Assembly (NCBI GenBank): GCA_018304295.1
Contig: JAGVWK010000008.1
Coordinates: 1 to 50,513, forward strand
DNA length: 50,513 nt
Source: Microcaldota archaeon
Lineage (GTDB): Archaea > Micrarchaeota > Micrarchaeia > Anstonellales > Anstonellaceae
Direction: 5' to 3'
The notes under the pieces were generated by a model that saw nothing but the letters and a program-made list of their open reading frames with translations, did no database searches and was not told the DNA's origin. Made by a program: the position numbers and the translations under genes. Shown here in pieces: positions 18,398 to 20,780 of this stretch. Numbering within the stretch: position 1 is the stretch's first letter; each line of letters opens with the position of its first letter.

Positions 18398-19447
18398 TCA
18401 CAACTCCTTGTAGCATCCAAGGAAGCGGAACATGCCGCTTTCCTTTTGCGTTTTTTCCAGCGCATCTTTCACATTCTTGTCCTCGTCGCTTCCTGCAAAG
18501 TCAATTATGAACCCATACTCCCCAGTCCCATTTTTCATCGGAAGGGATAGAATGCGCGTCAAATTTATTTTTGCGTCCGCAAGTATCTTCAATATCCCAA
18601 AGAGCGCGCCTGCCTTGTGTGCGGTTGTGAAGGCAATCGTGCACTTGTCCCCTTTTTCCTTTGCCTTTTCCCGCGACACAACAAGGAACCTCGTTGTGTT
18701 TGATGCATGGTCCTCAATGTTCTCCTTTATTATCTCCAGATTGTAAAGCCGCGCACACAGCGCGCTTGCTATTGCTGCCGAGCCCATCGGTTTTTGTGAA
18801 GCAACCATTTTCGCAGCCCCTGCGGTGTCGTAAAAGGGCTTTGGCTCAAGCTTGTTGCGCGCAATAAAGCCAGCGCATTGCGCAAGCGCCTGCGGGTGCG
18901 AATACACGCTTCGTATCTCCCGATAATCCATGCCGGAAGGCGCAAGAAGGCAGTGGTGCACGGGCACTTTCACTTCCCCTACAATGTGCAGCCCCGACTC
19001 CATAAGAAGTTCGTTCACTCCTGCAACCGGGCCTGCCAAGGAATTTTCAACCGGCACAACGCCCAAATCCAGCTCCCCGCTTTTCACAGCCTCAAACACC
19101 TGTGAAAATTCAAGGCAGGGAACTGGCACCGCGTTTTTAAGCGCGCCTGCGGCAATCTCGCTGTACGCCCCATGCTCCCCCTGAAATCCCACAAGCACAA
19201 GTTCTTTTTTCTGAAGCTCTTTTCCTTCCGCAATGAGCTCGGACACGATTTTCCTCCCAAACTCCGCACTCACGAGCCCGTGCGCCTTTTTCCCAATTGC
19301 CCCAAGCACCTGCTGCTCCCGCTTTCCATCCGTAACTTCGCCCTTAAACCTTTTTGTGCGAAGCGAAAGCTCCATCCTCCTGTCCATGAGCCTCAAAAGC
19401 TCAACGTCCAGCCCGTCAATTTTTTTCCTCACTTCGTCCAAGTCCAT
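18398..19447 (-). CDS. pheA: Chorismate mutase-prephenate dehydratase with ACT domain
   Basis: N-terminal CM MDLDEVRKKIDGLDVELLRLMDRRMEL; VPVENSLAGPV; HASNTTRFLVV; ACT domain KAGALFGILKILADAKINLTRI. Confidence 0.93.
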   Translation of the reverse strand: MDLDEVRKKIDGLDVELLRLMDRRMELSLRTKRFKGEVTDGKREQQVLGAIGKKAHGLVSAEFGRKIVSELIAEGKELQKKELVLVGFQGEHGAYSEIAAGALKNAVPVPCLEFSQVFEAVKSGELDLGVVPVENSLAGPVAGVNELLMESGLHIVGEVKVPVHHCLLAPSGMDYREIRSVYSHPQALAQCAGFIARNKLEPKPFYDTAGAAKMVASQKPMGSAAIASALCARLYNLEIIKENIEDHASNTTRFLVVSREKAKEKGDKCTIAFTTAHKAGALFGILKILADAKINLTRILSLPMKNGTGEYGFIIDFAGSDEDKNVKDALEKTQKESGMFRFLGCYKEL

Positions 19448-19451
19448 GCGC

Positions 19452-20780
19452 TCACCCTAGAATTTCTTTTGCAGGCTCGTAAGAGCCAATGTGCACCAGC
19501 CCCTGCCATCCTGCAATTTTTCCAACTCCCTCTTTCCTGTCAAACTCAACAACAAACTTTTCCCCATCCCTTTTCACTTTATATTCAGTCCTGCCCTGCA
19601 GCAACTCCCCAAGCCTCTCACGCACGTCATCTTTGAGCGCAGACAAAAGGTTTGCCATATGGCGCTCTGAGAATACTCTTGTTATTTCTGCTCCTGCATT
19701 CCTAATGCCATTAAGAAATAACGCAAGATCTTTCATGTCTGGCAGCCCAATTGAAACAATGTGCCTGCTGCCGCCCATCTCAGGCATTTTTGCCTCAAAA
19801 ATCAAGAAGCGTGTCCTGTTTGTCGGGTCATTTTCCAGATTACTTCTTACAATCTTAAGCCCGTAAAGCTGTGCGCACACGTTTCTTGAAATCGCGCCCG
19901 TTTCCCGCAATAATTCAGATGCAACCTTCAATGATGCACCCGCTGTATCATTGTGCTCAACAGCCTCCCATCCATTTTCAGCTATTGCATTGCTGCATTG
20001 CTTGAGCGCTTGTGGATGCGATAAAACGATTTTTATGCCACTAAAATCAGTTTCAGGCAGAGCAAGCAGGCAGTGGTGAATTGGCAAAATTATCTCTCCG
20101 CTCACTCCAAGCGAAGTATTGGCAAGTAGCAAATTTGCATTTTCAACAGCCCCTCCAATTGAGTTCTCAATCGGCACTTCCCCAAAATCAAAAATACCCT
20201 CTCCAACCCCCATGAGCACCTCTTGGAAGCTGCCGCAGGAAATGGGGATTGCCTTCTTATTCTGCGTTTCTGCAGCCAGCTCTCCATGTGCGCCCGGCAT
20301 CCCCTGATAAGCAGAAAGCATTGGATTTTCATTCAGCAGCTTCACTGTCTCGTCTATTATCCTTCTAAAAAAACTTGAGGCAACATTTGGACTCCATGCA
20401 CCTCTGGATGCATCCGTAACTCTTCCTAGCACTTCAATTTCACTGAACGACCACGGGTGCGCGGAAGCCTCTGCCTTTAGGCAGCGGAGGAGCGCACCCG
20501 CACAGGGAATGTTGTGGCTTCCGCCTGAAGCCCTTCCGCAATCTTCGCGGAACCTGCAAATCGGCGAACCGATTTGCGGTCCACTTTTCGCGGAAAGCGA
20601 AAAGTCGGAGCCACGGGCTTCAGCCCGTGGTCGTTCACGCTTAAAGTCGCTCACACCAAGCCCGCCTATTCTCTTGAGTCTGCCCACAACTAGCCCAAGC
20701 TCCATGCGTCTGCGCAGCTGGTGCACTATCAACAGGTCATTCGCATCAATTTTTCCCCTGATTTCTGCCAAGTTCGTCAT
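19452..20780 (-). CDS. pheA: Second chorismate mutase-prephenate dehydratase paralog, carrying a 65-aa insertion
   Basis: CM LAEIRGKIDANDLLIVHQLRRRMELGLVVGRLKR; VPIENSIGGAVENANLL; DPTNRTRFLIF. Confidence 0.9.
   Translation of the reverse strand: MTNLAEIRGKIDANDLLIVHQLRRRMELGLVVGRLKRIGGLGVSDFKRERPRAEARGSDFSLSAKSGPQIGSPICRFREDCGRASGGSHNIPCAGALLRCLKAEASAHPWSFSEIEVLGRVTDASRGAWSPNVASSFFRRIIDETVKLLNENPMLSAYQGMPGAHGELAAETQNKKAIPISCGSFQEVLMGVGEGIFDFGEVPIENSIGGAVENANLLLANTSLGVSGEIILPIHHCLLALPETDFSGIKIVLSHPQALKQCSNAIAENGWEAVEHNDTAGASLKVASELLRETGAISRNVCAQLYGLKIVRSNLENDPTNRTRFLIFEAKMPEMGGSRHIVSIGLPDMKDLALFLNGIRNAGAEITRVFSERHMANLLSALKDDVRERLGELLQGRTEYKVKRDGEKFVVEFDRKEGVGKIAGWQGLVHIGSYEPAKEILG
20439..20638. 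mobile_element. Palindromic MITE-like element inserted in frame in pheA paralog, flanked by TTCAC direct repeats
   Basis: TTCAC at 20439-20443 and 20634-20638; terminal inverted repeats CGACCACGGG/CCCGTGGTCG (extended TGAACGACCACGGG/CCCGTGGTCGTTCA); internal hairpins; net insertion 195 bp. Confidence 0.8.

Follow-up and report, generated by a model that had tools for sequence, protein, structure and literature searches.

A 50,513-nucleotide stretch of DNA from a Micrarchaeota genome (contig JAGVWK010000008.1 of assembly GCA_018304295.1; the genome is referred to here as G000 and the whole stretch as the window) contains a 195-bp palindromic insert within a gene for chorismate mutase-prephenate dehydratase (PheA). 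Judged from sequence, the insert is, with a probability of about 80%, a non-autonomous element of the IS200/IS605 type that would be mobilized in trans by a Y1 transposase and tolerated by its host as a translated linker. The evidence in hand comprises the anatomy of the element ends, the choice of target, the covariation of guide and target, the coevolution of the terminal arms, the presence of nearly identical copies at separate sites, and the existence of empty sites. On a wider scale, and with less assurance, the data favor the view that in one class or more of Micrarchaeota, miniature elements of this type have repeatedly inserted in frame and been kept as translated segments of normally essential enzymes (PheS, AroC, and probably AlaRS), with guides naturally rewritten several times jointly with the target tetranucleotides. 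The family would then be a mechanistically explained archaeal analogue of the protein-coding palindromes of Rickettsia.

In-frame palindromic inserts have so far been regarded as a peculiarity of Rickettsia, and we know of no agreed mobilizer for them. Searches of open-access literature brought up no earlier account of palindromes inserted in frame in archaea, nor of a comparable family from Micrarchaeota. The family described here offers archaeal in-frame palindromes, in normally essential enzymes, with ends that indicate a route of movement. Its natural guide-target covariation across many copies parallels in evolution what has been done in the laboratory by retargeting IS608, and the family makes testable the idea that mobile DNA adds protein segments in genome-reduced lineages, with Y1 transposons as the driver.

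The Element in the Window

A first-pass annotation of the window had placed direct repeats of TTCAC at 20439-20443 and 20634-20638, and these are confirmed with a spacing of 195 bp. The terminal inverted repeats that it described are present but longer than claimed, with arms complementary at 14 of 14 nt, and every internal hairpin that it listed is found in the window sequence. The parts of the element, with CL and CR the left and right cleavage tetranucleotides and GL and GR the corresponding guides, are as follows.

20444-20638, plus strand: inserted element, 195 bp or 65 codons; net gain relative to 20+ orthologs; covariance-model match at 20440-20638 (129 bits, E ~1e-27)
20440-20443, plus strand: CL, the left cleavage/target tetranucleotide TCAC (in TTCAC 20439-20443), host flank 5′ of the element
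20444-20457, plus strand: left arm of the terminal inverted repeat, TGAACGACCACGGG, 14/14 complementary to 20624-20637; the arms coevolve across genomes
20454-20500, plus strand: conserved left block, CGGGTGCGC...GCGCACCCG, a pairing alternative to the outer stem
20464-20467, plus strand: GL, GAAG, immediately 5′ of the inner left hairpin; GL/CL covariation across the family
20468-20487, plus strand: inner left hairpin, CCTCTGCCT/AGGCAGCGG; pairing kept and sequence variable across the family
20539-20609, plus strand: extra double-hairpin segment (hairpins 20556-20577 and 20583-20605), extent approximate; missing from the copy in genome G001 (net 57 bp by pairwise alignment)
20607-20610, plus strand: GR, GGAG in this copy; GAAG in the G001 copy and most family members
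20611-20630, plus strand: hairpin of the right end, CCACGGGCTTCAGCCCGTGG; IS200-type tnpA elements of relatives have matching right ends
20624-20637, plus strand: right arm of the terminal inverted repeat, CCCGTGGTCGTTCA, 14/14 complementary to the left arm
20635-20638, plus strand: CR, the right cleavage tetranucleotide TCAC and element terminus; CR/GR covariation

When the element is oriented so that its IS200-like end is at the right, it lies antisense to the host gene. Both of its strands fold far more stably than dinucleotide shuffles (z of -7.75 and -8.81 for the two strands; 0/200 shuffles as good), and the right-end hairpin motif has zero chance matches in shuffled window sequence. Rfam gave no match anywhere in the window.

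The Host Gene and Its Empty Site

The insert lies in the second of two adjacent genes of the same kind.

19452-20780, minus strand: host gene, PheA, 442 aa including the insert
18398-19447, minus strand: adjacent paralog, a full chorismate mutase-prephenate dehydratase without the insert

Within the host protein the insert occupies residues 50-114, whose codons lie at 20439-20633. The minus-strand open reading frame (ORF) is open throughout, and the 65 insert residues read as the first-pass annotation wrote them. Removal of the insert in silico joins SDFKRE directly to IEVLG, and the restored sequence aligns to orthologs free of gaps. More than 20 orthologs from the same order, together with the adjacent paralog, lack the insert, and 13 named relatives from public genomes are also continuous across the insertion site. 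The idea that the 65-aa segment is a conserved domain is thus ruled out by orthologs that do not have it; empty-site orthologs and further copies of the element both exist.

The prephenate dehydratase domain is whole (Pfam PF00800, E 1.9e-46) and retains its TRF motif. The chorismate mutase domain is split, with PF01817 matching only the first 44 of 80 positions and ending where the insert starts. AlphaFold2, run on the window protein with 14 relatives, gave predicted local distance difference test (pLDDT) scores that stay under 50 for residues 40-112 and lie mostly between 75 and 93 across the dehydratase domain; the insert is accordingly modeled as unstructured and the prephenate dehydratase core as confidently folded. 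The chorismate mutase motif of the host copy reads ETVKLLN in place of ESKxLQ, with Leu where the conserved glutamine is expected, and the C-terminal region has diverged. We take the replaced residue to be the active-site glutamine of chorismate mutase and the diverged region to be the ACT motif. Given these two changes, the domain that received the window copy was probably weakly constrained, and an intact paralog lies next door.

Distribution and Coevolution of the Family

Two further complete copies are found in G000 (C35:8034-8293 and C45:1759-2121), 95-97% identical over the aligned parts. Both lie 3′ of TTCAC, terminate in CGTTCAC, and carry additional internal hairpins. A covariance model trained on ten copies gave 53 matches in 21 of the 84 genomes of the order, and a sample of the phylum contained copies in 23/296 genomes, four of them outside the order and all in one class; these copy and genome counts are lower bounds, as scoring covered only some of the candidates from the first look. 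A single exact pattern of the conserved left block had no match in viral_contigs.

The copies differ widely in age. Genome G013 holds four that are 99-100% identical at different sites, which argues for recent movement, whereas those of G072 are only 72-83% identical and are therefore old insertions. Sequence identity with named records assigns G072 to 'Candidatus Micrarchaeota archaeon DR5_33_55' and G005, discussed below, to 'archaeon DeMMO2_7'. Element size across the family is ~80-360 bp and the unit length is often not divisible by three; a unit that is always a multiple of three is ruled out by the measured lengths.

An outer stem and two arms are predicted by RNAalifold, with 14 pairs changed on both sides. 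Independently of any fold, left and right arms match at 12.6/14 positions within a copy versus 8.0/14 between genomes, and 0/20000 permutations reach the within-copy value. Arm sequences thus differ between species while remaining complementary inside each copy, and they switch as a set per genome.

End Anatomy and Guide-Target Covariation

A subterminal hairpin with a guide at its 5′ foot is found at both ends of the element. The right end is built from the guide, a 20-nt hairpin, 4 nt and the terminal tetranucleotide, and the left end from the flanking tetranucleotide, a stretch of 20 nt or, in some subfamilies, fewer, the guide and the hairpin. End positions were assigned by this fixed geometry, since automated hairpin finding misplaced some right ends. 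A right end of GAAG, hairpin, 4 nt and TCAC occurs in 26 copies, and GAAG or GGAG precedes the inner left hairpin in 41.

This arrangement is that of IS608, in which CL TTAC is served by guide AAAG and CR TCAA by guide GAAT, and the first guide base pairs with the second target base and the second guide base with the first (pairs A+16:T-3 and A+17:T-4) (PMC5934647). The IS608 rule predicts that TCAC goes with GAAG, CCAC with GGAG, TGAC with CAAG, and TTAC with AAAG. At the right end the pairs TCAC/GAAG (26 copies), TGAC/CAAG (6), and TTAC/AAAG (1) are observed, and CR base 2 against GR base 1 gives a table of 33 and 0 in the first row and 2 and 10 in the second (descriptive Fisher p 2e-8). At the left end GAAG accompanies TCAC in 21 copies and CCAC in 1, and GGAG accompanies CCAC in 8 and TCAC in 0; the resulting GL by CL table (21 and 1; 0 and 8) has a descriptive p of 1.5e-6, or 5e-4 when collapsed per genome. 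Some individual genomes contain both kinds, G034 for the left end and G042 for the right, and so do individual families. The rule is often violated by the old copies of G005, G028 and G072, as would be expected if their ends have decayed.

The flank is also constant at unrelated sites within a genome: TTCAC at 3/3 sites in G000, CCAC at 4/4 in G013, and TCAC at 4/4 in G236, and most copies in G225 likewise lie 3′ of TCAC. In recent copies the flanking tetranucleotide is fixed, and the sequence is the same whether the target was duplicated or was simply kept next to an element that itself ends in TCAC.

The right end furthermore resembles that of elements with tnpA. Such elements in G013, G000 and G019 terminate in the same form, hairpin-TNNNTCAC, and over 29-30 nt the right ends of IS200 elements in G019, G009 and G044 are a 93% match to the window copy; the two compared IS copies of G044 carry a different right end. 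When the ends of insertion sequences (IS) and small copies of the same genome were compared, only the right-end architecture agreed.

Movement may be pictured as follows. In single-stranded element DNA both ends would fold into hairpins, and the guide tetranucleotide 5′ of each would pair with its cleavage tetranucleotide, the left flanking TCAC or the right terminal TCAC. A Y1 (HUH) TnpA acting in trans would then excise the element and rejoin it 3′ of another TCAC.

Several points weigh against this account. The guide rule was spotted by eye before it was tested, and the copies in the covariation tables are not phylogenetically independent. The GR of the window copy itself, GGAG, is one base off and would need a G:T wobble. 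Long terminal inverted repeats such as the 14-bp repeats of this element are unusual in IS200/IS605. No copy encodes tnpA, which lies elsewhere in some genomes, and many copy-bearing genomes, in incomplete assemblies, are without a detected Y1 gene. In turn G019, G009 and G044, with the best IS200 right-end match, are without small copies by the covariance model, again in incomplete assemblies. No tnpA element was found that shares the same left end, so the acting TnpA is inferred, as is the single-strand chemistry. Finally, the translation of any insert is a proposal.

In-Frame Copies in Conserved Genes

Strong in-frame cases, with homology on both flanks, are PheA in G000; PheS, AroC and a PCC-domain protein in G072; and TYW1 in G005. 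Pfam models bridge the insert in AroC (PF01264) and in the PCC protein (PF03479). A contig with AroC, DYTL01000011.1, comes from deep-mine samples. Empty-site relatives were found for AroC and for PheS, where the insert is located in a variable linker, and relatives of TYW1 that are up to 73% identical on both flanks are without the insert. PheS and AroC in G072 and TYW1 in G005 are each the single gene match in their genome. Probable cases are AlaRS in G236, with a 42-codon insertion directly after codons 1-2, a branched-chain aminotransferase-like gene in G034 with an insertion near the C-terminus, and, in G072, a gene for a PMT_2 protein. Possible cases are a TPR-like ORF in G013 and two G028 genes. 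Crossing ORFs that resemble chance open frames or neighboring genes (e.g., G080:C40 and G005:C11) were excluded from the count.

The joined-flank test of the order-level copies found zero conserved genes broken by a frame-shifting insertion. Among genic copies the orientation varies, as does the frame that is read, so no single conserved peptide is encoded by the element, and an intergenic copy in G072 has stops in frames -0 and +2, both of which are open in genic copies. Over all copies 103/414 frames are open, while shuffles give 114 +/- 10. The family thus shows no avoidance of stops, and because its open frames are not above shuffle level the element has no special adaptation to coding. 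For the same reason, the lack of gene-breaking copies is better explained by selection on copy survival than by element adaptation.

Genic insertions would survive if the unit is a multiple of three without stops in the needed frame. The resulting segment of ~33-65 residues is most likely translated as a disordered linker, and in relatives the element lies in a loop or linker, or toward one end, of enzymes that include AroC, PheS and TYW1.

Alternative Explanations

The perfect 14-nt inverted repeats, with matching TTCAC on both sides, would also suit an ordinary miniature inverted-repeat transposable element (MITE) moved by a DDE transposase, with TTCAC as a 5-bp target-site duplication and the inverted repeats as transposase binding sites. 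A DDE-type MITE is nevertheless improbable because the flanking tetranucleotide is fixed: it is invariant at unrelated sites within a genome and covaries with an internal guide, and the right end resembles that of Y1 tnpA elements. A domesticated structured RNA or regulatory element, in which pair conservation reflects RNA function and genic copies are by-products, would account for the compensatory changes in the outer stem and arms, the two alternative foldings and the extreme stability on both strands. It is a shade less credible still, given copies at unrelated sites and in both orientations to genes, arms that switch as a set per genome, and the lack of an Rfam match in the window; moreover, a role as RNA would not predict a guide-target pattern that extends to host DNA in the flank. 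Archaea possess a bulge-helix-bulge splicing endonuclease, and the element ends pair into a long stem, so removal of the element from mRNA, leaving a protein that never contains the insert, can be envisaged. Frame-breaking insertions would then be tolerated, yet joined-flank tests found none in a conserved gene, and the genic copies of G072, diverged to 72-83% identity, are still open; of all the readings this has the slimmest prospects.

Relaxed selection on the window gene deserves more weight than these, although it too is unlikely to be the whole explanation. The host gene would be a decaying paralog, and an in-frame insertion would mean nothing else; an intact chorismate mutase-prephenate dehydratase adjoins it, the conserved glutamine has become Leu, and the C-terminal ACT region has diverged. 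On the other hand, the prephenate dehydratase domain is complete and keeps its TRF motif, no stop interrupts the frame, and the same family lies in frame in single-match PheS, AroC and TYW1. For the window copy, decay of the paralog is compatible with a Y1-mobilized IS200/IS605-type element and does not replace it.

Relation to Known Elements

Rickettsia palindromic elements are dispersed palindromes of ~100-200 bp that lie in frame in unrelated metabolic and housekeeping genes and are tolerated as extra protein segments (PMC10969869). The resemblance drawn by the first-pass annotation holds for an in-frame mobile palindrome in unrelated protein genes (PheA, PheS, AroC, PCC, TYW1) but not for a single conserved peptide, since the Micrarchaeota genic copies use different frames and both strands; for this reason the family is not filed as a Rickettsia palindromic element. 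"Archaeal counterpart" is apt as an analogy, the host genome being a micrarchaeote with in-frame copies in other conserved archaeal genes. The element works in a similar way; ends of IS200/IS605 type with covarying guides do not require homology, and none is claimed.

Shared with IS608-type elements of the IS200/IS605 group are a guide that precedes the hairpin at either end and would pair with the cleavage tetranucleotide, and a location 3′ of a specific tetranucleotide, which stands in the left flank (PMC5934647). Unlike these, the Micrarchaeota elements are without tnpA or tnpB, have 14-bp terminal inverted repeats, and in most copies have identical CL and CR (TCAC). The palindrome-associated transposable elements (PATEs) of Haloquadratum are likewise archaeal, transposase-free and IS605-type related, with near-terminal palindromes, but are defined as lacking terminal inverted repeats (PMC3119063), so the present family, with its 14-bp repeats, is not a PATE. 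Another Haloquadratum group, the small mobile repeats SMR-A, is similar in size (~110 bp), in its prominent inverted repeats, probably in the absence of target duplication and in having a mobilizer that is not known (PMC3119063). SMR-A target palindromes of PATEs and IS605-type elements, whereas the Micrarchaeota elements target sites 3′ of YCAC in genes and spacers. Repetitive extragenic palindromic (REP) sequences and bacterial interspersed mosaic elements (BIME), with REP-associated tyrosine transposases (RAYT), are also palindromic repeats moved by a Y1 transposase, with a tetranucleotide 5′ of the hairpin, and Y1 genes flanked by terminal inverted repeats (TIR), termed TIRYT, exist with TIR families (PMC3733652). 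The REP foot is GTAG or CGTC, whereas the Micrarchaeota guides are GAAG, GGAG or CAAG, and no RAYT was found adjoining any copy. The best name is therefore a non-autonomous IS200/IS605-type element with inverted repeats.

Additional Observations

The double-hairpin segment at 20539-20609 has GGACC/GGTCC between its two hairpins, and is perhaps a second, smaller mobile palindrome family. One of its hairpins stands solitary at two G001 sites, one of which adjoins an apparent tRNA 3′ end, and a similar hairpin pair occurs in G019 (loci of these recurrences: L033 and L039 ~1501-1537; L044 ~1490-1550). Genome G028 contains at least two multi-copy IS200 types, with termini CCGATTTATCGGGTGGTAGTTCAC and AGGGGCAAAGCCCCTATTTCAC, and several contigs break inside them (L235, L236, L242-L244). 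A half copy in G000 (C28:33733-33752, L010) begins where a small RelE/ParE-like gene ends, directly behind its stop codon, and a copy in G028 (C78, L116) lies in frame in the N-terminal part of a similar small gene.

The tandem chorismate mutase-prephenate dehydratase genes of the window (18398-19447 and 19452-20780) lie beside aroC, and their sequences suggest a division of labor between the copies. Close relatives (48-58%) of the archaeal PheA occur in records labeled Planctomycetota, Deltaproteobacteria, Elusimicrobia and Syntrophus (L152, L155, L161-L163), which reflect either horizontal transfer or mis-binned contigs.
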